Shown here: positions 18,601-35,782 of the stretch, piece after piece
How positions within the stretch are numbered: the stretch's first letter is position 1
How the letters are laid out: each line of letters begins with the position of its first letter
NCBI GenBank assembly: GCA_024275435.1
Contig: JAJRZC010000035.1
Coordinates: forward strand, 1 to 38,311
Direction of reading: 5' to 3'
Source of the DNA: Alphaproteobacteria bacterium
GTDB lineage: Bacteria; Pseudomonadota; Alphaproteobacteria; Rhizobiales; Hyphomicrobiaceae
Length of the DNA: 38,311 nucleotides
Notes under the pieces: generated by a model
What the model was told of the DNA's origin: nothing
Database searches by the model: none
The model's input: only the letters and a program-made list of their open reading frames with translations
Translations under genes and position numbers: made by a program

Positions 18601-18883
18601 GTTCGGAAATCGGTCTAATCTTGGGAAGCAGCATCGCACGCTGACCGCTAACATCTAGAAACGCTTGCGTGAGAGCCCGCTGTGCGCGTCGTGTCGGCAT
18701 CAGCAGCGTTGCGAAAGATAGATCAATGGGGTCTGGCTTGATCCCACCGAGATTTGGCAGATCACCATTCAAGATAGAACGTGCCAAAACTGACAAGAAA
18801 GGTTCACCGGGAGCTACGGTGAAAACCGATCCGGAAAGAGAGGTACCTGAAGAGGGCTCATCTGTTTTCTTCAAAGACGTCAC
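15608..18883 (-). CDS. addB: Double-strand break repair protein AddB
   Basis: AddB is the partner of AddA. It has an inactive helicase fold that scans DNA and a nuclease domain for the other strand. The 1091-residue protein shows the alphaproteobacterial form: LLMPTRRAQRAL near residue 60 in place of a Walker A motif, and a C-terminal nuclease with RADRID and ITDYKTGQI (Asp965-Lys967). I do not see the Cys cluster that holds the iron-sulfur centre in Bacillus AddB. The start is GTG at 18883, overlapping the murU stop by four bases (GTGA), which suggests translational coupling. addA follows after 12 bases. Confidence 0.94.
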   Translation of the reverse strand: MTSLKKTDEPSSGTSLSGSVFTVAPGEPFLSVLARSILNGDLPNLGGIKPDPIDLSFATLLMPTRRAQRALTQAFLDVSGQRAMLLPKIRPISERDEELALLSQLASFDITSGEGIFSSTDWAVGIPPAIDPIHRVLLLTQLVTQWSRALRSGSAKAVETSERAPVISAGARTPAQAVNMAQELAQLMDLVEAEGRSLDGIDEIVPEDLTHHWKLTVDFLQIIMHYWPEQLEELQLISPWQRQNRLILAEAERVLKTKPEGPLIVAGVTGSIPATVELMRSVLGHDNGAVVLPGLDLTLDEESWQTIVPDHPEHPQFGMKKLLDELGLTRGDVRILKGDFPDSTSDTHKWRAAFFSEAMRPARTTQLWHKFTESADRKQIAAGLSNVHLLEAPTSFVEAETVALILREVAETPGKTGALISPDRMLARRVAIRLKSWGIDVDDSAGRPFVKTVPGAFLDLVINCVAKNFAPAELMALLKHPLCRLGLEAREIRFAARALEIAAFRTTYIGQGLDGIAAALSRALSECEAGTRRGRAVKRLRAEDWDRARDLIERLRGAFSPLIDLFEERKEQTLRSLARAHLETSEALCRTEKTLEQTERAPRGRESDRSDGNQSGTTSPLFLREAGAFAAESFSALLSQAHAAPDIAPVDYPDFYRTLIGRQNVRERSRVHPRLSIWGPIEARLQKVDVAILGSLNDGVWPDSADPGPWLNRPMRETLKLPAPEEGIGRKAFDFTSFLDAPQVILTRAKKVDGVACVPSRWLMRMRALLDGLELSNALEGDKPWLSWAAARDASEDPKPLKRPRPKPPLSVRPRRLSVSSVETLIANPYAIYASKILKLEPLPVLGTSPDAALRGGIIHAVLARFANTYPNNLPHDCEQVLLELAREVLTEYTGHPRVAAFWVARFERFATWFCETEPARRVDLESTFAEVNGTLSFEAPAGKFELTARADRIDVLSSGLIITDYKTGQIPNDKKVLSGISPQLPLEAAIAREKGFSRIAHSTLRGLRYIQASGGEPPGNEHLVKCDDVDALALEMAENLTSLIAHFDDPSTAYACLRRHDLSYDYDEFAHLARVAEWSGSGLDDPSGAG

Positions 18884-19611
18884 GTTTCATCCAATATGTG
18901 TTCAGCAATGAGACGTTCAGCCTCTAAAAGTGCTTCCGGTGTCCCCACGTGCATCCAGACCCCATCTAAAACCATCCCAAAACAACGCTTATGGGAAAGT
19001 GCACGGTCCCAAACCTTGTTGAGAGAAAAGGGAACGGCTTCAAAACCATCAAACAGAGAAGGTTTCATGATCGAAACACCGGCAAAGACATACGGAACTT
19101 CCTGCCCCTCAACGCGCCGGCTTAAAATACCCCCCTCGCTCATGCTGAAATCGCCGGAGCCATCATAGCCCAAACTGGTAGCCCTTACTGCCAGCAACAT
19201 CAGGCAATCCATCTGAGACGGGTTCCAGGTCGAAATCAATCTAGATATGTTCGAATGGGTTTTCTCGATCCAGACACTGTCGCTGTTGTGAACAACAAAC
19301 GGCGCACTGCCAAGTAACGGCAACGCGTGCACAACCCCACCACCCGTTTCAAGAAGGCGCTCACGCTCATCTGAAAAAATAATCTTAGGTCGCCCATATC
19401 CCTCAAGATGCTTCGAGAGAACGTCAGCTTTGTAATGCAGATTGACAACGGCCTGTTCTATACCGGCCTGCCAAAGTCGATCAAGGACATGATCCACAAG
19501 CGCCTGCCCAGCGAGCTTGACCATCGGTTTGGGGACCGTATCCGTGAGGGGACGCATGCGCTTGCCAAATCCGGCAGCCAAAACCATCGCGGTTACAACA
19601 GCGCCACTCAT
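18880..19611 (-). CDS. murU: MurU-like N-acetylmuramate-1-phosphate uridylyltransferase
   Basis: This is a nucleotidyltransferase of the sugar-phosphate type, 243 residues long. The signature LAAGFGKRMRPLTDTVPKPM is at residues 11-30, and the metal-binding Asp is in VVHNSDSVW. In Pseudomonas and Caulobacter such a protein (MurU) turns MurNAc-1-phosphate and UTP into UDP-MurNAc in cell-wall recycling, working after the kinase AmgK. The AmgK-like domain encoded just upstream supports that assignment, but a mannose- or glucose-1-phosphate specificity cannot be excluded by eye. A TTG at 19620 is also open; I chose the ATG at 19611 because it sits closer to the conserved motif. The stop overlaps the addB start by four bases. 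Confidence 0.85.
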   Translation of the reverse strand: MSGAVVTAMVLAAGFGKRMRPLTDTVPKPMVKLAGQALVDHVLDRLWQAGIEQAVVNLHYKADVLSKHLEGYGRPKIIFSDERERLLETGGGVVHALPLLGSAPFVVHNSDSVWIEKTHSNISRLISTWNPSQMDCLMLLAVRATSLGYDGSGDFSMSEGGILSRRVEGQEVPYVFAGVSIMKPSLFDGFEAVPFSLNKVWDRALSHKRCFGMVLDGVWMHVGTPEALLEAERLIAEHILDET

Positions 19612-19687
19612 AACCAACAACCCCCGAGACTTTCAAAACCCCACAAGAAAAAACAAATACCTCACACGAAGCCCGTCTCACTGACTA

Positions 19688-21280
19688 TCATCTTCGAAAC
19701 GGGGCAACTTGTATCTGTTTGTCGAAAGCATCTTCATACCAGTTTGCAAGGTCTCTAAGTTTGGGATGTTGCAGGTTGCGGTTGAGATATCCCCAGATAC
19801 GTGGAATATGCGCAAGATAATGAGGCTTACCGTCACGCTCGGCAAGGCGCGCAAAGATGCCCAGGATTTTCGTATTTCTCTGAGCACCCATTATTGCATA
19901 ACTATGCACAAAGACTGTCCGGTCAAACGCACTATCAGCCTGTCGCACTTGCTCGCAATAGGATTCAATTAACTGAGTTTCAAGAGACTCAGGAACGCTC
20001 ACGCGCGCATCTTGCAGCAAAGAAACGAGATCATAGGCGGCCGGTCCACGACATGCATCCTGAAAATCAATGATCCCCACGCCACGAACACCCCTGCGCT
20101 CCGGTAGCCAGACGAGATTTGGCGAATGATAGTCTCTCAAGCACCAATGGTCCGGATCGTTTTCCAGTCCATCAATAACGACATCCCATATTGAGAAGAA
20201 TTGTTGGCGCTTGTCCTCAGGCATTAGAGAACCATGAACTTGCGGCCAATACCAATCGGCAAGAAGTGCCAGCTCACTCAACATGGCAGAACGGTCAAAG
20301 GCCGGTATATTGTGTTTCAGCTGTCCGCTCACCTCAACCACATCGGGAACAGGGAAACCCCGCAACGCGACCAATGTATCGGTAGCAGCCTGCCACAATA
20401 CATCCATGGACATGCCCTGTTGCACCTCATCAAAAAAAACCCTGGCTCCCAGGTCTTCCAGGATCAAGAAACCGTTGTCGAGGTCCGCAGCAAATATCTC
20501 AGGAGCGCTGAAGTCTTGAGAGCGCAGAGCGTTGGAGACAGCAACAAACGGCGCGACGTTATCTGCAATATGTGCCAGTTGATTGTAAGTTTTCCCATCA
20601 CGTAAAATCTTATTCTCGCGGACATGAGGCCAGTCCATCACCAACGCATAGTGTTTATCTTGCGTGAATAAACGTGCATATCGGCGCGCTGAGGCATCTC
20701 CCGCCAAATAAGAAATAGCCGAAAGCTTTTGATACCATCCAGATGACTTTATGAGTTCATACATCGCTCTCAAGCGTTTCAGGCGATTTTCCCAATGCCC
20801 AAAGCCCGTCAAAAGTATATCGCGCGTGTCATTGTCGGCATTTGAATCTCTTGTCGGTTGGCTAGGCTCATCCATCGGATCGATAATATTAAGAATAAGC
20901 CGGTCATGAGGTAGCCAATCTCCACCATGAGAAGGCCACTCAACAAGAGCAATGCTGTCATCGAGAGCATGGTCGAGCCCCAGTTCAGTCAGTTCGCTGG
21001 GATCGCCCAGACGATAAAGATCAAAATGCGCAATATTCATGCGTGGCGTATTGTACGTCTGCACCAGAGTATAGGTCGGGCTGGGAATCTCTTCGTCGCG
21101 ACCTCCCAGAAAGGCTCGAATAAAAGCGCGCGCAAACGTGGTTTTGCCAGCTCCAACCTCACCCTCAAGCGCTATCAGGTCGCCTCGGCGAACAATAACA
21201 CTGAGCAGTTGGGCAAACAAAACCATCTCAGGCTCTGAAAGCTGCAATATGGAAAATGTTGAAGCTGAATTGTCGGGCAT
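19688..21280 (-). CDS. tsaE: Fused TsaE (t6A ATPase subunit) and AmgK-like sugar kinase
   Basis: This is a two-domain protein of 530 residues. Residues 1-150 are TsaE, the ATPase that supports threonylcarbamoyl-adenosine (t6A37) formation in tRNA, with Walker A GEVGAGKT (40-47) and the family motif SPTYTLVQTY. The remaining part is an aminoglycoside-phosphotransferase fold. It has LAGDASARRYAR near the start, a catalytic loop LRDYHSPNLVW and a metal-binding IIDFQDACRGPAAYDL. This matches AmgK, the anomeric MurNAc/GlcNAc kinase. The murU-like gene 76 bases downstream would supply the next step. Such fusions are known in Rhizobiales. A GTG at 21307 is open too; the ATG at 21280 is preferred, although neither has a strong ribosome site. 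Confidence 0.9.
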   Translation of the reverse strand: MPDNSASTFSILQLSEPEMVLFAQLLSVIVRRGDLIALEGEVGAGKTTFARAFIRAFLGGRDEEIPSPTYTLVQTYNTPRMNIAHFDLYRLGDPSELTELGLDHALDDSIALVEWPSHGGDWLPHDRLILNIIDPMDEPSQPTRDSNADNDTRDILLTGFGHWENRLKRLRAMYELIKSSGWYQKLSAISYLAGDASARRYARLFTQDKHYALVMDWPHVRENKILRDGKTYNQLAHIADNVAPFVAVSNALRSQDFSAPEIFAADLDNGFLILEDLGARVFFDEVQQGMSMDVLWQAATDTLVALRGFPVPDVVEVSGQLKHNIPAFDRSAMLSELALLADWYWPQVHGSLMPEDKRQQFFSIWDVVIDGLENDPDHWCLRDYHSPNLVWLPERRGVRGVGIIDFQDACRGPAAYDLVSLLQDARVSVPESLETQLIESYCEQVRQADSAFDRTVFVHSYAIMGAQRNTKILGIFARLAERDGKPHYLAHIPRIWGYLNRNLQHPKLRDLANWYEDAFDKQIQVAPFRR

Positions 21281-21368
21281 TAGGGACCAAAAAATGACAC
21301 AGCGCACAGCTCCACAATCGACGGCAACGCCAGATTAAGAAAGTATGCGTCTTGGATGGGTATGCCTA

Positions 21369-23894
21369 CTAGCCTGCGCGATCATCGGCAAGAGTTGATT
21401 GAAAGTCTTCTTGTTGCAGTCCAGCCTTCTGAACGCGACCATTCTTTGGCAATCTAACCGTAAAGGTTGTTCCCTTACCTGGTTGCGAGTCCACCGAAAT
21501 GCTGCCGCCATGGAGTTCAACTAGGCTCTTGGTGATCGAAAGGCCAAGGCCCGCACCACGATGTTTGGACCCTTGGCTGTCGCTCACAAAACGCTCGAAA
21601 ATCCTTGACAGCGCTTCTTGTGAAATACCGATACCGTGGTCCTCCACCTGGAATACAACCTGGTCGTCTTCACCAAAGCAGGAGATGCGAACCTCACCAC
21701 CATCTATTGAAAACCCTACGGCATTCGAGAGCAGGTTATAAAGGATCTGCTGCAAGCGCCCCCCATCGGCAATAAAGTTTTTTGTGTCCTCGGCAACGGC
21801 AATATCAATGGTGAGGCCGGCACGCACCGCTTGCTCGCGAACGCCTGCAACGGCATTCTCAATAACCTCATGGACATTGATGGTCTCAGGCTGAATCTCA
21901 AGTTCACCAACATCAATTGTGGCCAAATCCAGAATGCCATCGATAATGGACAACAGTGTTCTTGAGGAGTAGCCGATATCCTGGACATATTCTCTTTGCT
22001 TGTCGGTCAAAGTGCCAAGAAGTGGGCTTTCCAGAAATTCACTAAAGCCGATGATGTTTGTAAGTGGTGTTCTCAGTTCATAGGACACATTACCGATGAA
22101 CTGGTTCTTCAATCGGTCAGAAGCCAGCAACGCCTCGTTTCTCTCGACCAATGCGCGCTCATAACGCTTTGAGTCCGTAACATCCACAAACGTCAGCAGT
22201 GTCGCCCCATCGGGAAGAGGCGTTGTAGCATAGTCGATAACAGAATTGTCGGGACGCAGCATCTGGCCTTCAAGCGGTGTTCGCATATCGCTAAATGCGG
22301 TAATAACTCGTTTGAGACGTGCCCAGGTCGCCTCATCATCGTAGAGGACACCGGCCACTGAAATAATTTCATCTATATGCGGTCCGCGCTCAAGCATGGA
22401 CGGCGACAGTTTCCAGATCGATGTAAATGCCCGGTTGTGCAGCTTGAGCCGTCCATCAGTGGCAAACAGCGCAACCCCATCGGTGAGACTGTTGAGCGTT
22501 TCGCTTTGCACCCGGATCATCTCATTGTATTGGCTTTGCAGCGCCAGCCGTTCAGACTCATCATTAAACAGGAATGTAATGCTGCCATCCTGTCGGTGTT
22601 CTGAGACAACATGCATCAAGCGACCATCTGGCAGAGGCCATAGGTCGTCAAACGTCTGTTCTCCATCCCCCTCAAGCCGCAAAATAGCCTTGCGCCATTT
22701 CGAGTAATTGATAACCGCTGGCAACTTGTCATGGGCAAGAAGCAGGTCGAAAACCTCTGTGCCACTAGGGCCGGTGGCAAGCCAGGAAGAATCAAGGTTC
22801 CACAAGCTGGAGAAAGAGGGATTGGAATATATGAGTTTCCGTTGGGGATCGAAAATTGCGACCCCTGTAGACACGCGATCCAATGTCCAGTCGTAGTTTT
22901 CAATCTGACGGTCAAATTCGCCGCGAGCGTTCTTGATTTCGGTAACATCGTTGGCCGTTCCCGCAAAGCCATCATGAAACGGAACAACCACCACATCAAA
23001 AGTGCGCCGTTCCCCATCGATGATGATCGGCAGAACCTCACGGTAAGTTTCACCTGAAGAGATTTTCTTCGCGATTGTTTGTCGCTGTCTCCGTTCCAGC
23101 AACTCAGTATTACGGGCAATGACATCATCGACGTTGGGTGCCTCAACAGCTTTAACATAGGCGGTATTGACCCAGGTTAAGCGCCCCTCAGCATCCTTTA
23201 GCCAGGCAGGTGTTGGTAAAGAGTTCAAAAGAGCGCGCGAGGAGCGAACGTCACGAGCCAGTTGCTCATGAATATCGTTGATACGTGATATTTCCCGCTT
23301 ATATCCGGAAATGTCTTTAAGGCGCAAAACAGCTCGCCCGGCACTGGCGCGCCCATCAGCCTCCAGGTGCCCTCCGGAATGAGTTTTCAAAATCATATTG
23401 AACGGGCGGCCGTCTTGAAAAAGAACGCGCGTAGCCGCTTCAAAGTTCCGTGCCGATCGCGAATCGAGCCAATCAGAAAAGTGCAGGATGTCTTCATCCT
23501 GTTTAGGTAATCCTGAAATCCCAACAAGCGTATTACTGACGATCTTAAGCGCCCCGCCAATTTCCCAATACATGAGTACTTGGGGCTCCGAGCCGACAAC
23601 CGACTCTGCCGTAGTCAGGCGTTGGCGTAGTTTACGATTTTCATCATGCACCCTGTTAACATCAAGGCGGGCATGGTTGGTCGTGCGCCACACCAGGAAG
23701 CCTGCTGAGACAGCGCTTATGCTGATAAAAAACAGCAAAAGAATCTGAGAAAGCCCCAGTCCGGAAACCACGACCGTTTCGCCTTGCGCGATCGCAACTG
23801 TCAACACCGTGACGCACGCGATGCTCGCCAGGAGCAGAAGGATAAGCTCCCTGGCTTCGTTACGGCTTGATGCTGAAAGCGGTGGTGAGGCCAT
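21369..23894 (-). CDS. divL: DivL-like PAS sensor kinase with Tyr in place of the phospho-acceptor His
   Basis: This is an 841-residue membrane sensor-kinase homologue. Two membrane helices lie at about residues 15-70, with no large periplasmic loop. About four PAS-like segments follow (roughly 105-200, 220-325, 340-455, 470-580), then a HisKA helix and a HATPase domain. The HisKA motif reads FIGNVSYELRTPL: the acceptor His is Tyr605 (codon TAT on the minus strand at 22080-22082). The ATPase side looks intact (N box LLSNAVGFS, DHGIGIS, FERFV, GAGLGLSITK). The same His-to-Tyr change and similar architecture define Caulobacter DivL, which controls CckA and polar cell-cycle signalling. Orthology is inferred. 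The gene lies between ahcY and the tsaE fusion. Confidence 0.8.
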   Translation of the reverse strand: MASPPLSASSRNEARELILLLLASIACVTVLTVAIAQGETVVVSGLGLSQILLLFFISISAVSAGFLVWRTTNHARLDVNRVHDENRKLRQRLTTAESVVGSEPQVLMYWEIGGALKIVSNTLVGISGLPKQDEDILHFSDWLDSRSARNFEAATRVLFQDGRPFNMILKTHSGGHLEADGRASAGRAVLRLKDISGYKREISRINDIHEQLARDVRSSRALLNSLPTPAWLKDAEGRLTWVNTAYVKAVEAPNVDDVIARNTELLERRQRQTIAKKISSGETYREVLPIIIDGERRTFDVVVVPFHDGFAGTANDVTEIKNARGEFDRQIENYDWTLDRVSTGVAIFDPQRKLIYSNPSFSSLWNLDSSWLATGPSGTEVFDLLLAHDKLPAVINYSKWRKAILRLEGDGEQTFDDLWPLPDGRLMHVVSEHRQDGSITFLFNDESERLALQSQYNEMIRVQSETLNSLTDGVALFATDGRLKLHNRAFTSIWKLSPSMLERGPHIDEIISVAGVLYDDEATWARLKRVITAFSDMRTPLEGQMLRPDNSVIDYATTPLPDGATLLTFVDVTDSKRYERALVERNEALLASDRLKNQFIGNVSYELRTPLTNIIGFSEFLESPLLGTLTDKQREYVQDIGYSSRTLLSIIDGILDLATIDVGELEIQPETINVHEVIENAVAGVREQAVRAGLTIDIAVAEDTKNFIADGGRLQQILYNLLSNAVGFSIDGGEVRISCFGEDDQVVFQVEDHGIGISQEALSRIFERFVSDSQGSKHRGAGLGLSITKSLVELHGGSISVDSQPGKGTTFTVRLPKNGRVQKAGLQQEDFQSTLADDRAG

Positions 23895-24136: not shown

Positions 24137-25546
24137 CTAATAACGGTAATGATCAGACTTATAGGGTCCTTCTGTTTTGATACCGATATAAGAAGCCTGT
24201 TCGTCGCTCAGCTGAGTGAGTTTTACACCGATCTTATCAAGATGAAGCCGGGCAACTTTTTCATCCAGCGTCTTTGGCAACGTATAAACCTGATTTTTGT
24301 ACTCGCCGCTGTCACGCTTTGTCCAAAGCTCAATTTGAGCCAGCGTTTGGTTCGTGAACGATGCCGACATCACAAAGGAGGGATGTCCCATCGCATTGCC
24401 GAGGTTCACAAGCCGGCCTTCGGAAAGAAGGATAATTCTGTGTCCATCGGGAAATTCAATCTCGTCAACCTGCGGCTTGATGTTGGACCATTTATTATTT
24501 TTGATACCGGCAACGTCGATTTCGTTATCAAAGTGGCCGATGTTGCAAACAATGGCGCGGTCTTTCATCTTACGCATGTGATCAGCTGTAATGACGTCCT
24601 TGTTGCCCGTAGCCGTGCAGAAGATGTCGGCTTCTGAAACAGCCTCATCCATCGTGACAACTTCATAGCCTTCCATGGCCGCCTGCAAGGCGCATATAGG
24701 ATCAATTTCAGAAACCATCACCCGGCAGCCAGCATTTCGAAGCGAAGCGGCAGAACCCTTACCGACATCCCCAAAGCCCGCCACCATCGCAACCTTGCCC
24801 GCCATCATGACATCTGTACCACGTCGGATACCATCTACGAGGCTTTCGCGGCAGCCATAAAGGTTATCGAACTTGGACTTGGTGACACTGTCATTGACGT
24901 TGATGACCGGAAACAGCAGCGTGCCATCCTGGGCCATCTGGTACATGCGCAGCACGCCCGTTGTGGTTTCTTCCGTTACGCCATGGATGTTTTTGGCCAA
25001 CTCGGCAAACCAGCCCGGCTTCTCGCCAAGAGTTTTCTTGATCAGGTTAAATAGAACTTCTTCTTCTTCAGAGCCCGGCTTGTCGAGAAAAGCCGTATCG
25101 CCCTTCTCAGCACGCAGCCCCAGATGCACGAGCATCGTGGCGTCACCACCATCATCAAGGATCATGTTCGGCGTGCCACCATCGCCCCACTCCATCATCC
25201 GGCGGGTAAAGCTCCAGTATTCTTCAAGACTTTCGCCCTTAAACGCGAACACGGGAACCCCAGATGCCGCAATGGCCGCAGCCGCATGGTCTTGAGTTGA
25301 GTAAATATTGCAAGACACCCACCGCACGTCAGCACCAAGCGCCTTAAGTGTTTCGATTAAGACCGCGGTCTGAATTGTCATATGTAAAGAGCCGGCAATT
25401 CTTGCGCCTGTCAGCGGTTTCGAATCGCCGTATTCCTTACGTGTCGCCATGAGGCCGGGCATTTCTGTCTCGGCCATGGAGATTTCCTTGCGCCCAAAGT
25501 CAGCAAGGCTGATATCTTTGACGATGTAGTCGCCGGCAGCAGTCAT
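24137..25546 (-). CDS. ahcY: S-adenosylhomocysteine hydrolase
   Basis: AhcY splits S-adenosylhomocysteine into adenosine and homocysteine, removing the inhibitor left by methyl-transfer reactions. It is a cytoplasmic NAD-dependent tetramer. The 469-residue protein has [10 protein letters not shown] in the substrate domain, the NAD-binding loop GFGDVGKGS from Gly257, and the usual C terminus [10 protein letters not shown]. The start has AAGGGA seven to eight bases upstream. It stands alone between two intergenic regions, with its own terminator. The leader contains a nested inverted repeat at 25587-25621. Confidence 0.98.
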
Positions 25547-25950: not shown

Positions 25951-26250
25951 TCAACTCTCCTCGCCAAACCCACAGTTTACCAGCTCCACAAGTGCTTCAA
26001 GAGCTTCTGGCCCCTCCGGTCCTCCGGCAATGAGCAACAGTTCAGTCCCAGGGCCGGCAGCCAGCATCATCAATCCCATAATCGATGTACCACCCACCAT
26101 TTGTCCATCACGTGAGACCTTGATCTGCGCATCAAAGCTCTCAGCGCACTTCACAAATCGTGCCGATGCGCGTGCATGCAACCCTTTGCGGTTGCAGATC
26201 GTGACGGTGGCTTCAGGATGACAGCCAAGATTTGCGCGTATTTCACTCAT
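25951..26250 (-). CDS. ptsH: Phosphocarrier protein HPr of the regulatory (PTS-Ntr type) phosphotransferase system
   Basis: HPr passes phosphate from Enzyme I to EIIA proteins. The 99-residue protein has the phosphorylated His25 in KGLHARASA and the regulatory Ser56 in GGTSIMGLMML, the site for HPr kinase. Both are present, and the kinase gene lies just upstream, so both phosphorylation states are plausible. No sugar permease is nearby, which points to a regulatory rather than transport role, as in other Rhizobiales. The EIIA-Man gene ends 59 bases upstream and is likely co-transcribed. Confidence 0.95.
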   Translation of the reverse strand: MSEIRANLGCHPEATVTICNRKGLHARASARFVKCAESFDAQIKVSRDGQMVGGTSIMGLMMLAAGPGTELLLIAGGPEGPEALEALVELVNCGFGEES

Positions 26251-26309: not shown

Positions 26310-26714
26310 CTACGATTCCCTCGAAAGCTCGTTCCCCGCAACCTTAATATATTTGCGCCCCGCATCATGCGCAATATTCACAGCTTCTCTCAGGGGCATC
26401 TCATCTCTTATGCTCGCTAACTTAACCAGTATCGGAAGATTAATTCCGGCAATAACCTCCACAGGAACCTCATCCATCACCGAGATAGCTAGGTTTGAAG
26501 GTGTTCCGCCGAACATATCCGTCAATATAACAACGCCATCTCCACTTTGAGTTTTCTCAACAGCGCAGATGATCTCTTTGCGTCTTGCGGTCATATCGTC
26601 TTCTGGGCCGATAGAAACCGTCTCTAGTTGTGTTTGCGCACCCACAATATGTTCTAGCGCGGATCTAAATTCCTTTGCTAGATCACCGTGCGTAACGATG
26701 ACCAGTCCTATCAT
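26310..26714 (-). CDS. PTS EIIA component, mannose (fructose-superfamily) type
   Basis: This is a stand-alone EIIA-Man domain of 134 residues that accepts phosphate from HPr on His9 (in VIVTHGDLA). The domain motif LTDMFGGTPSN is clear. It lacks the EIIB half found in E. coli ManX. In alphaproteobacteria such proteins form a short regulatory chain with HPr and HprK, usually next to ChvG-ChvI as here. A TTG two codons upstream (26720) is better placed behind AAGGGA than the ATG at 26714, so the true start may be 26720; the difference is two residues. Confidence 0.93.
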   Translation of the reverse strand: MIGLVIVTHGDLAKEFRSALEHIVGAQTQLETVSIGPEDDMTARRKEIICAVEKTQSGDGVVILTDMFGGTPSNLAISVMDEVPVEVIAGINLPILVKLASIRDEMPLREAVNIAHDAGRKYIKVAGNELSRES

Positions 26715-26883
26715 CGTCAAAAACCAAATCCCTTTCTGCCAATGTATCGGGGCAAATACGAGCTCCCTTTGGCATCGCGTTTCGAGCCGTCTGTCTAGAA
26801 ACCAACACGAAATAGCTTGTGCGGTGCAAAAGTTACAAGTGTTCGCTCAAAGTGCAAGAGGGAATCGCAAAGGCTTCTGCTAA

Positions 26884-26976: not shown

Positions 26977-27450
26977 TCAGCTTTGTTCAGGTAGTTTTCC
27001 ACCCCGCGCCAGCATAATGAGGAGCTTTACACTCGCTGAATTATCAAATGCATGTAGCTTCAAAATAGGCAGGCGGACACCTTGAATGCACGTGCAAGGC
27101 ATAGGGTCTGGTAGCCTCTCAACGTCCCCTTGTGGCACCAGCTCTACGATCATCACCAGCCTGGCACGATCGAGACTTTGAATATCGATGACGCCAAGAC
27201 CGCGCACCTCAAGCTTGCCGCTCAGTGTCTTGGGAGCACGTACACTAAGCAGCCCATCATGTTCGAGCAACACCTCCCCATAGTCATCAGCCACAAGACG
27301 AATGGGGCCGCGGAACAACGGACACGGCGCTTGAGCAAGGCAACGCAGGGCAAGATCTGATTTTCCAGCACCCGATGGGCCACGAATGAGCGCCGCAAAA
27401 TCACCATGTGCAATTATGGTCCCATGCATAAGCTCTGGCGTACTAGGCAC
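26977..27450 (-). CDS. hprK: HPr kinase/phosphorylase, short alphaproteobacterial form
   Basis: HprK phosphorylates HPr on its regulatory Ser, and the full-length enzyme also removes that phosphate. This 157-residue protein has only the C-terminal catalytic domain, as is usual in Rhizobiales. Walker A is GPSGAGKS (24-31), followed by RLVADD and the family signature LEVRGLGVIDI. A GTG at 27465 is also open, but GGGGAG lies six to seven bases before the GTG at 27450. Either way the start overlaps the end of chvG (by 8 bases from 27450), so the two genes are coupled. It is shorter than the roughly 310-residue Gram-positive enzyme. Confidence 0.92.
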   Translation of the reverse strand: MPSTPELMHGTIIAHGDFAALIRGPSGAGKSDLALRCLAQAPCPLFRGPIRLVADDYGEVLLEHDGLLSVRAPKTLSGKLEVRGLGVIDIQSLDRARLVMIVELVPQGDVERLPDPMPCTCIQGVRLPILKLHAFDNSASVKLLIMLARGGKLPEQS

Positions 27451-29479
27451 CCGTCGCTCCCCCACGACTTGATGTGCCCGTGCGATCTATGGTGTTGCCA
27501 CTACGGTTTGCCACTGAGCGTCGCACAGGAAGGCGCACAACAAACCGTGCACCCAATCGGTTCCCAGCGTTAGGTCCATCACCTGACGTTCGGTTTAAAG
27601 CCCAGATCTCTCCGGCATGGGCTTGCACAATCTCGTTTGATATACTCAAGCCCAGACCAGAATTGTCTCCACGGCTGGAATCCATGGTCGGCCGGTACGT
27701 GTAAAAACGAGAAAAGATCGTCTCAAGCTTGTCTTCTTCGATGCCTGGTCCATCATCATCAACAAAGACCTCAACAAAGTCCCCAACACGCGAAGCGCTT
27801 ATTCGCACTTCGCTCTTGTCAGGTGAAAACGACAAAGCATTATCGATGAGATTTGTGAAAACCTGAGCAATCCGCCCCTCATTGCCCAGCACAACATAAG
27901 ACTGATTTTCTGAAGCTGACGATACATCAAGTATCAACCGGCAATCACGTTTGGCAGCTTTATCCTCGAATATCATCACGATTTTCTGCAAAACAGCATC
28001 CACCGCGACGGGGTCAGAAGATTGTCGTGCCAGCTCAGCGTTCAGTCGCGAAGCACTGGACACATCGGTGATCAGCCTGTTCAAGCGCTTGAGTTCACCT
28101 TGTATCTGTTCAACGAGCAACGCGCGTTGCTCAGGAGTTTTCGCAAATTCCAACGCTTGTGCTGTTGAACTTGCAGCAGTGAGTGGGTTCTTCAGTTCGT
28201 GCGCCACATCAGCGGCAAATTTTTCACTCGCCTCAATGCGCGCAAATAAGGATTTGGTCATGGAGCGAAATGCCTTCGCCATCCGGCCCACTTCGTCTTC
28301 TCGACCTTCATAGCTTGGCAGGTTGACATGCGCATTGATGTCCTGGCTAACCAGTTCGGCTGTTTCCGAAAGCCGTTTCATCGGTCCGGCAACTGCTTGA
28401 GCAATTAACAACGATGTGACGATGCTGGCAACAAGCGCCAAAAACGCCAATGGCCAGATGCCCTTTCGCTCCTCCGCAAGAATATCGTCAACTTCACCCG
28501 GGGGGGTCGACAGCAGTAGGACACCTAGTACCCGCCCCATCCGCTGAATAGGCACAGCCATCGAGACGATCTGCTCTCCCTTGCGATTGAGCAAAAGCAT
28601 GGCTTCGGTGTTTCCCTTAAGAGCACCGCGCACCTCAGGATAGTATTTGCCGTTCGCCGTTCCGATTTCCTTGTAGACCTGGACTTCCTTGTCGATAAGC
28701 CAGTGCTGTAATCTGGTCCAGAAGTTCTTGGTTCGAGGACGCTCCGGATTTTTCTTAACTTTGGCATTGGTCTCGGTAAACTGACCATTTTTCAGCCACA
28801 TGGAACTATCAACCACAAGTGTACCTGATTGGTCGTAAATGCGCGCACGTGTCTTGATAGGTTCAATCAGTCTGTTGAGAATAGGAGTCACAAACTGAGG
28901 TTGGATGGAAAGCTCCAAAGCGGCGAAACCATCATCGCGTAACGGGACCCGCACAGGTTCTTTTCCCGGGATCGTTTCAGGGTCCAGCGTAAAATCCGTT
29001 GATGAAACCTTTGCATCTCCGGCAATAGCTGCTGCAATAATCTGCCCCTGTATTTTAAGAGCGTCACTTTTCGCGTTGATAACCCATCCGCTATCCAGGC
29101 TCAGGTATAAGATTCCAATAAACAGAATCGTAAACCCAATAAGATTCGACACCAGAATTTTTCGCAGAAGTTTTCTGGAAATAAATCGAACAATTCGCCA
29201 TGAATTAACCCGTGAGGCAATCTTCGTCGCCACGGGTCCACCCGGTCGAATGGCCACCAGTATGCGCCGCAAGAATCTGAGCGCAGGTGCGAGCCACTTC
29301 AATGAAGAAGGCAGTTTACTTGGGTATTGAGCGTCAACAAGAGGCATCACGCGAGCAACCCGTTGAGCGGCAACATTCATACGCCGCATCAAGCTGCTGC
29401 CAAGGTCACGCACAGCCTCCACCGCTCGGCCAATAAGACCGCGTGCTGCTTCAAAACTATCGCTACCAAGGAGCGCCAT
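27443..29479 (-). CDS. chvG: Two-component sensor histidine kinase ChvG (ExoS type)
   Basis: ChvG is the membrane sensor of the ChvG-ChvI system, which responds to acidity and envelope stress and controls host interaction, exopolysaccharide and motility in Rhizobiales. The 678-residue protein has a cytoplasmic N-terminal extension of about 100 residues, TM1 at about 108-128, a periplasmic sensor domain of about 210 residues, a second membrane segment (WPLAFLALVASIVTSLLIA) and a HAMP linker. The HisKA domain has His427 in VAHELKNPL, and the HATPase has NLIDNALSFS, DDDGPGI and SGLGLSIS. GGAG lies six bases before the ATG. It follows chvI by 155 bases, and hprK overlaps its end. Confidence 0.95.
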   Translation of the reverse strand: MALLGSDSFEAARGLIGRAVEAVRDLGSSLMRRMNVAAQRVARVMPLVDAQYPSKLPSSLKWLAPALRFLRRILVAIRPGGPVATKIASRVNSWRIVRFISRKLLRKILVSNLIGFTILFIGILYLSLDSGWVINAKSDALKIQGQIIAAAIAGDAKVSSTDFTLDPETIPGKEPVRVPLRDDGFAALELSIQPQFVTPILNRLIEPIKTRARIYDQSGTLVVDSSMWLKNGQFTETNAKVKKNPERPRTKNFWTRLQHWLIDKEVQVYKEIGTANGKYYPEVRGALKGNTEAMLLLNRKGEQIVSMAVPIQRMGRVLGVLLLSTPPGEVDDILAEERKGIWPLAFLALVASIVTSLLIAQAVAGPMKRLSETAELVSQDINAHVNLPSYEGREDEVGRMAKAFRSMTKSLFARIEASEKFAADVAHELKNPLTAASSTAQALEFAKTPEQRALLVEQIQGELKRLNRLITDVSSASRLNAELARQSSDPVAVDAVLQKIVMIFEDKAAKRDCRLILDVSSASENQSYVVLGNEGRIAQVFTNLIDNALSFSPDKSEVRISASRVGDFVEVFVDDDGPGIEEDKLETIFSRFYTYRPTMDSSRGDNSGLGLSISNEIVQAHAGEIWALNRTSGDGPNAGNRLGARFVVRLPVRRSVANRSGNTIDRTGTSSRGGATGA

Positions 29480-29634: not shown

Positions 29635-30342
29635 TCAGCTCTCCTTAAAGCGGTACCCAACGCCATAGAGTGTTTCGATCACATCAAAATTGTCATCAAC
29701 CTGCTTAAATTTCTTCCGCAGTCTCTTTATATGGCTATCAATCGTACGATCATCAACATAGACTTGGTCATCATACGCCGCATCCATCAAGGCATCGCGG
29801 GTTTTTACAACGCCGGGGCGTGTCGCGAGCGCTTTCAGAATCAAGAATTCCGTGACCGTAAGTGTAACCGGTTTGTTGTCCCAGTGACAGGTATGACGTT
29901 CTGGGTCGAGTTTTAGAAAACCGCGTTCAAGAATCTGTTTTGTTTCTTCAGTCGTCGGGGGTCCTTCACGTGCAATGGAGCGACGCAAAATCGCCTTCAC
30001 CCGCTCAACCACCAACCGTTGAGAAAATGGCTTGGCAATGTAGTCATCGGCTCCCATTTTCAACCCGAATAGTTCATCAATTTCTTCGTCTTTCGACGTT
30101 AAAAAGATTACCGGCATATCTGATTGTTGACGCACTCGGCGCAAGAGTTCCATTCCATCCATGCGTGGCATTTTGATATCAAAAATACCAAGGTCGGCAG
30201 GGTCTTCACTCAGTGCTTCCAGTGCGGCCACACCATCGCTGTAAGTGCGAACCTTGTAGCCCTCGGCTTCAAGTGCCATGCTGAGCGATGTTAAAATGTT
30301 CCGCTCATCGTCAACCAGTGCAATCGTACTCTTTTCTTTCAT
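29635..30342 (-). CDS. chvI: Two-component response regulator ChvI (OmpR family)
   Basis: ChvI is the DNA-binding partner of ChvG. The 235-residue protein has a receiver domain with the acidic pair in VDDE, the phosphorylated Asp55 ([12 protein letters not shown]) and the conserved Lys in AKPFS. The C-terminal winged-helix domain ends [11 protein letters not shown]...YGVGYRF. The frame is open for 23 codons upstream to 30411, but [13 protein letters not shown] is the usual N terminus, so the start is the ATG at 30342. It is the first gene of the chvI-chvG-hprK unit and is divergent from the HugZ-like gene. Confidence 0.96.
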
Positions 30343-30705
30343 CGTTCTCGCCTTTGGATCGCTTAGTGCCGCCGCCTGGCCGCGCTCATTATGTTTCAAA
30401 CGTGCACGCAAGATGTGCGTAAAGTGGTACGGCCTTGTTTTTTGTAAGGGCCATGACCAATATCGATAGTGTCAACAGGGCCAAGCTGAACCGAGCCTGA
30501 ATAGGCGAGACGGTTAATTGTGGCAAGTCGCACAAGTGGTAAGCCCAAACGGCCTTTGTGGCAATGCCGCAAAGACCTTGTGCAAACAAGTTTCACAATC
30601 ATAACATACGGGATAGCCAGAGAAAAACGCTCCCATGAGCAATTTAGGAAGGTTAACCCGTTCACCAGCGGTTTTCTGGGGGTAAAGAGGGAAAGTAGAG
30701 GGGCC
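30343..30705. other. Divergent promoter region chvI / hugZ-like gene (363 bases)
   Basis: No gene is supported here. It must contain the promoters of both neighbours. A near-perfect inverted repeat CTTTGTGGC-AAT-GCCGCAAAG (30554-30574, one mismatch) lies about 130 bases before the HugZ-like start. AGAGGGG (30697-30703) is the ribosome site of that gene. Confidence 0.5.
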
Positions 30706-34948: not shown

Positions 34949-35782
34949 ATGATTCATATTATCAAGTTGGGAGGGTTTCTTGAACAAATGACAACTGTCC
35001 CCAAAAGCTTGTCAGACAGAATGGCCAAAGGCACACTCATGGTACCGCAGGAATTCGAAGCCGTGTTAAGGCAGGTTGCGGCTGAGAACTATCACGACAA
35101 GCACCCTTTTCATAAAATGCTTCATGGTGGTTTACTCAGCAAACACCAAGTACAAGCTTGGGCTATAAATCGCTATTGCTTTCAGGCAGCTGCCCCTCGC
35201 AAGGATGCAATTTTGATCTCCCGCGCGCTTGATCGAGAATTCAGGCGCGAGTGGGTACTTCGGCTTTTGGATCACGATGGCTTTGGTTCTGACGAAGGCG
35301 GGATCGAGAGATGGCTCAAACTTACCGATGGCCTCTCTCTCGATCGTCATTACGTCACCTCAATGAAAGGGGCGCTTCCCGCAACAGTTGTCACCATAGA
35401 AAGTTATCTGTCGTTTGTTCGCGAACAACCCTTTGTCGCGGCTGTGGCCACAACACTGACAGAGCTTTTCGCACCAAAGCTTCATAGGAAAAGACTGTCG
35501 GCGATGCTAGAGTCGTATGATTTTATAGATCATGAGGTGCTGACATATTTCAAACAAAGGCTGACACACGCCCCACGAGATGCTTCCTTCGCCCTTGAAT
35601 ATGTCATCAAGAACGCCACCAGTCCCCACGACCAACAGGCCTGCATCGAGGCCGTCAAATTCAAATGTAAAATGCTTTGGGAACTCCTTGATGCACTTCA
35701 CCAGGCATATGTTCTTGAACAATGCCCGGTTGGTGCATTTCGCCCCGAAAACGCTACTCAGGAAGAGGCCGTTCAGAATTAA
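34949..35782 (+). CDS. PqqC-like (pyrroloquinoline-quinone synthase family) protein
   Basis: PqqC performs the last oxidation in making the redox cofactor PQQ, without metal. This 277-residue protein aligns along its length with PqqC: YHDKHPFHKMLHGG, NRYCFQ, LDHDGFGSDEGGIERW, SLTELFAP-type TTLTELFAPKLH, YFKQRL and VKFKCKMLW. Residues equivalent to His24, Arg50, His84, His154, Arg157, Tyr175, Arg179 and Lys214 of the Klebsiella enzyme are kept. The Tyr-Tyr pair at 52-53 is Cys77-Phe78. The ATG at 34949 has AGGAG seven bases upstream; a second ATG at 34988 is possible. No pqqA, B, D or E is in the window, so it may be a standalone PQQ enzyme or a relative with another substrate. Confidence 0.82.
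   Translation: MIHIIKLGGFLEQMTTVPKSLSDRMAKGTLMVPQEFEAVLRQVAAENYHDKHPFHKMLHGGLLSKHQVQAWAINRYCFQAAAPRKDAILISRALDREFRREWVLRLLDHDGFGSDEGGIERWLKLTDGLSLDRHYVTSMKGALPATVVTIESYLSFVREQPFVAAVATTLTELFAPKLHRKRLSAMLESYDFIDHEVLTYFKQRLTHAPRDASFALEYVIKNATSPHDQQACIEAVKFKCKMLWELLDALHQAYVLEQCPVGAFRPENATQEEAVQN

Follow-up and report, generated by a model that had tools for sequence, protein, structure and literature searches.

A DivL orthologue with tyrosine at the phospho-acceptor position in a Hyphomicrobiaceae-type bacterium, and histidine-bearing DivL proteins in other Alphaproteobacteria

Introduction

Is a gene with the plan of a sensor histidine kinase but a tyrosine codon at the acceptor position a divL gene, and could its product still be a kinase? 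The question is raised by a gene in a stretch of 38 311 nucleotides (hereafter the window), for which an earlier note had proposed DivL from the sequence. Caulobacter DivL is devoid of kinase and phosphatase activity: autokinase activity is absent and an ATP analogue is bound weakly, whereas its PAS and DHp domains bind DivK~P selectively and so link the phosphorylation of DivK to CckA (PMC4211667). The kinase or phosphatase mode of CckA is set by a silent reader of DivK~P (PMC4211667, PMC9430884). In Sinorhizobium meliloti, divL exerts its effect via CckA and CtrA, and temperature-sensitive alleles point to essentiality (PMC11500502).

Results

The gene is one long minus-strand open reading frame (23894-21369) with an ATG start, 841 amino acids and no internal stop; the plus strand over 21369-23894 is closed by many stops. 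Its HisKA motif is FIGNVSYELRTPLT, and the acceptor position is Tyr605, encoded by TAT at 22082-22080 of the minus strand and the counterpart of Tyr550 in Caulobacter DivL. The earlier reading of NVSYELRTPL with TAT in place of a His codon was thus correct. Pfam matched HisKA (residues 596-661), HATPase_c (710-817) and three PAS domains. An AlphaFold model (mean pLDDT 82, pTM 0.38), in which the domain folds are usable and their arrangement is not, consists of two N-terminal helices (8-37 and 48-102), PAS-like folds, the DHp region (model residues 573-662; 21909-22178, minus strand) and the CA region (670-816 in the model; taken as residues 670-817, 21444-21887, minus strand). There are four PAS-like folds, at about 105-194, 230-316, 344-445 and 473-571, the first of which was missed by Pfam. 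Hydropathy gave two membrane segments in agreement with the N-terminal helices. The plan of two membrane helices followed by several PAS domains is as first suggested.

In a search of solved structures, the best sequence match was Caulobacter DivL (4q20; E 1.1e-46), with 96 of 237 kinase-domain positions identical; the next kinase, HK853 (1.9e-36), followed at a distance of ten orders of magnitude in E. By fold, 4q20 was among the top matches (39% identity over DHp-CA), and ranked above it were longer multi-domain kinases and phytochromes with more of the query aligned and low TM-scores. We then placed the protein in a HisKA-HATPase tree (101 rows, quick IQ-TREE; Caulobacter DivL and CckA kinase domains taken from PDB alignments), in which the genome's own kinases, one of them DivJ/PdhS-like, stood in for PleC, DivJ and PdhS references. 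The window protein and 4q20 fell inside an 84-row DivL clade (99% SH-aLRT) that excludes Caulobacter CckA and the genome's own kinases tested. The protein therefore groups with Caulobacter DivL and not with ordinary PAS kinases.

No second full-length DivL was found in the genome assembly, which is 94.5% complete; the next match to the window protein (121 bits) covers the kinase domain only and carries His. Two other identities were rejected. CckA does not fit, as the window protein lacks a receiver domain and an HDFNN-type H box and the genome's CckA lies on contig C8, and DivJ, PleC or PdhS do not fit because of Tyr605 and a score of 147 bits against NCBIfam DivJ/PdhS cut-offs of 1000 and 2000. 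Genome contigs were scanned for relatives, of which the best 80 Hyphomicrobiales loci were kept. The closest among the matches listed are the DivL proteins of Hyphomicrobium and Filomicrobium (L133-L144; 48-55% identity), which carry Tyr without exception, have mostly the same neighbours and differ in no way of note. In a genome of the same family (G008; 1.8 Mb, 95% complete) there was no full-length DivL match (best E 3e-31). We conclude that the window gene is a standard Hyphomicrobiales DivL, real but ordinary, of a known family and in an already described operon. The earlier assignment to DivL is upheld by the best structural match, the clade, the conserved Tyr and the operon position.

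Tyr occupies the position of Tyr605 in 136 of 136 Hyphomicrobiales loci, a number that slightly exceeds that of independent loci since a few genomes are present in both collections. By comparison, His stands at this position in each of the genome's 17 other kinases in which it could be read. The earlier note had described the ATP-binding motifs as intact. This holds for the N (Asn724), G1 (Asp752, Gly754, Gly756), F and G2 (Gly780, Gly782, Gly784) boxes, whose residues are conserved in nearly all DivL orthologues, but not for the N-box Lys, which is Gly727 in the window protein (codon 21714-21716). This position, which corresponds by alignment to Lys383 in HK853, is Lys in none of the 136 Hyphomicrobiales loci. 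Outside the order, about half of the DivL proteins (28 class-level loci) have the Lys. Its loss would fit a catalytically silent kinase. As the motifs are intact except for His and the N-box Lys, residual ATP binding by the window protein may be possible.

The surface that receives DivK in Caulobacter is also recognizable. Arg553, Pro555 and Ala601 of Caulobacter DivL correspond to Arg608, Pro610 and Ala658, which are found in 136/136, 135/136 and 122/136 Hyphomicrobiales loci, respectively. In Caulobacter, Arg553 and Ala601 are needed for DivK~P docking. Besides this docking triad, the Caulobacter and window proteins share the acceptor Tyr, the PAS array and the DHp-CA fold; they differ at Caulobacter Tyr562, which is Phe617 here (and Phe in 131/136 loci), and at the N-box Lys position, which is Arg in Caulobacter and Gly in the window.

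The partners of DivL are encoded in the same genome. DivK matches Caulobacter DivK (1m5t; E 2e-59) and its gene adjoins that of PleD; PleD, CpdR and CtrA pass their NCBIfam cut-offs, and the CckA on contig C8 has the Brucella CckA model as its best match. The ChpT frame found on contig C402 of the draft assembly is broken by a TAA stop, and there is a further, incomplete ChpT that begins at the end of contig C148 (L101 and L102, respectively). The interrupted and duplicate copies are possibly due to an assembly error or to contamination.

The earlier note saw the gene in a metabolic block between ahcY and tsaE-amgK-murU. These neighbours were identified correctly, but the block is not incidental: the order chvI-chvG-hprK-EIIA-HPr-ahcY-divL-tsaE/amgK-murU-addB-addA-trx is conserved across Hyphomicrobiales, and divL adjoining ahcY or tsaE was seen in other orders too. 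The window genes listed here all lie on the minus strand. Upstream of divL are a ChvI/BvrR-type response regulator (29635-30411), a ChvG/BvrS-type sensor kinase that has its His (HELKNPL; 27443-29479), HprK of the C-terminal domain type (26977-27465), an EIIA-man type PTS protein (26310-26720), HPr (25951-26250) and the conserved neighbour ahcY, encoding S-adenosylhomocysteine hydrolase (24137-25546). Downstream follow the equally conserved tsaE-amgK fusion (19688-21307; TsaE at residues 26-142, APH family at 201-454) and a murU-like nucleotidyltransferase gene (18880-19620). S. meliloti, Agrobacterium (DivL is Atu0027; PMC3577659) and Brucella, whose DivL proteins are known, belong to the same taxonomic order. 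In Brucella abortus, this bvrRS-hprK-PTS-ahcY-divL-tsaE gene set is a demonstrated 16-gene operon in which divL is named and ahcY and divL are cotranscribed (PMC9491525). In the window, by contrast, ahcY and divL lie 240 bp apart, and the gap contains a terminator-like hairpin with a T run (about 24097-24064; -27.2 kcal/mol, z -2.0), and cotranscription with ahcY is therefore less certain. A promoter and terminator scan near divL gave nothing above chance, and the window holds no exact CtrA box (TTAA-N7-TTAA).

We extended the comparison to another 59 genomes of Alphaproteobacteria whose best match was DivL-like. The acceptor was Tyr in 48 and His in two; the others had Phe, Val, Ser, Thr, Gly, Gln, Lys or Leu (one each), and one lacked a kinase domain. 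DivK was not found where the acceptor was Thr, Gly, Gln or Lys or where the kinase domain was missing, and the genome with Leu had only a 45% identical regulator in its place. Of the 48 genomes with Tyr, two lacked DivK. Decay of the acceptor and absence of DivK were associated (Fisher p 0.0016, without phylogenetic correction). That a decayed acceptor site goes with a mostly missing DivK supports a DivK-reading role of DivL. In the small or reduced genomes represented by L264, L265, L268, L270 and L271, the Tyr of DivL is gone, frequently together with its ATP motifs or kinase domain, and these genomes lack DivK. This parallels the related loss of both DivL and DivK in Rhodobacterales (Brilli et al. 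2010, PMC2877005; PMC9430884).

The families of the two His-bearing genomes, f59 and f103, were surveyed separately. His was present at the DivL acceptor in 23/23 readable genes of f59 (L275 (G092), L278-L300, L323, L324). Within f103, the genera g127 (2 genomes) and g166 (10 genomes) have His and six genomes of other genera have Tyr. L275, L320, L321, L323, L324 and L328 lie in the identical chvI-to-addA operon and are therefore positional orthologues. In a PAS-to-CA tree with a weak root, the f59 and g127 His groups were nested among Tyr proteins (support 90-98%) and the g166 group formed a long, unplaced branch; because of that root, the direction of the Tyr/His change is not proven. The third of these His groups, small and with an intact kinase signature (L274 and L303; G137, G199), sits among Tyr-bearing members of its own family. 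DivK is present in every genome with a His-bearing DivL that was tested.

The ATP sites of these groups differ. In the f59 and g127 proteins, the N, G1 and G2 boxes are complete and the N-box Lys is present; DivL of the f59 type may be a working kinase. In g166 (L320, L321, L328, L310-L319), the His is kept but the N, G1 and G2 boxes are destroyed; such a protein, with an acceptor His on a pseudo-ATPase, would formally resemble a phosphotransfer protein. The sole exception to Tyr mentioned in PMC4211667 is Magnetospirillum (Ala). No report of a His-bearing DivL was found in the literature searched, and one may nonetheless exist.

Discussion

Our results identify the DivL of this lineage, with the chvIG-PTS-ahcY-divL-tsaE operon and a complete CckA-ChpT-CtrA input circuit in place. 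We regard it as highly probable that in this Hyphomicrobiaceae-type bacterium the window gene is the divL orthologue and that its product works by the published DivK~P-CckA mechanism, the latter by analogy with Caulobacter and Sinorhizobium. The protein would be held in the inner membrane and would not phosphorylate itself. Its DHp surface would bind phosphorylated DivK, with phospho-selectivity provided by the PAS domains, and this binding would change its contact with CckA. Free DivL would promote CckA kinase activity and keep CtrA~P high, whereas with DivK~P bound to DivL, CckA would act as a phosphatase and CtrA~P would be low. Of the 'phosphatase modulator or signal integrator' offered in the earlier note, the non-kinase role is retained on grounds of orthology, and we would refine it to a silent DivK~P reader that sets the mode of CckA.

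The same features can be read in other ways. Generic HisKA kinases, HK853 among them, are matched by the kinase domain as well, as they would be in the case of an ordinary PAS histidine kinase, unrelated to DivL, that lost its His by chance or through a sequencing error. Given Tyr at every orthologous locus (136/136), the grouping with Caulobacter DivL and an operon position common to annotated divL genes, we consider this chance of practically negligible size; a sequencing error or stray loss is ruled out by the Tyr conservation together with the synteny. Tyr605 might itself be the phospho-acceptor of a bacterial tyrosine kinase that keeps ATP binding. Caulobacter DivL was reportedly first proposed, in 1999, to be a tyrosine kinase, and the intact N, G1, F and G2 boxes, which are under selection, and the invariant Tyr in Hyphomicrobiales would suit such an enzyme. 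The missing autokinase activity and weak ATP-analogue binding of Caulobacter DivL (PMC4211667), and the loss of the N-box Lys from all 136 Hyphomicrobiales loci, make it very improbable.

The conserved linkage to chvI-chvG-hprK-EIIA-HPr, and the cotranscription of the equivalent genes in Brucella (PMC9491525), could indicate that the main output of DivL has moved from CckA/CtrA to the co-encoded PTS-Ntr/ChvGI stress circuit. We think this very unlikely: the genome encodes the full CckA pathway and DivK, the DivK-docking residues are conserved, S. meliloti divL works via CckA and CtrA (PMC11500502), and the terminator-like hairpin separates ahcY from divL in the window. We thus retain the silent DivK~P reader for the window protein, which on its own does not change the understanding of DivL.

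The wider survey may qualify the picture of DivL as a uniformly fixed Tyr pseudokinase. Hyphomicrobiales would be doubly locked out of catalysis, by Tyr and by loss of the N-box Lys, while some His-bearing orthologues elsewhere with a complete ATP site could be DivK-responsive kinases; we put this forward as a tentative idea, somewhat more likely to fail than to hold. A natural His-bearing DivL, if real, suggests a direct test of whether DivL was, or became again, a kinase.

Two further genes may be recorded. At 34949-35782, the window encodes a TENA/PqqC-family protein (E 4.9e-39) that is PqqC-like by eye, and no other pqq genes were recognized in the window. On contig C326 of the genome, an 890-aa protein (L026) has two complete HisKA-HATPase modules flanking a receiver domain.
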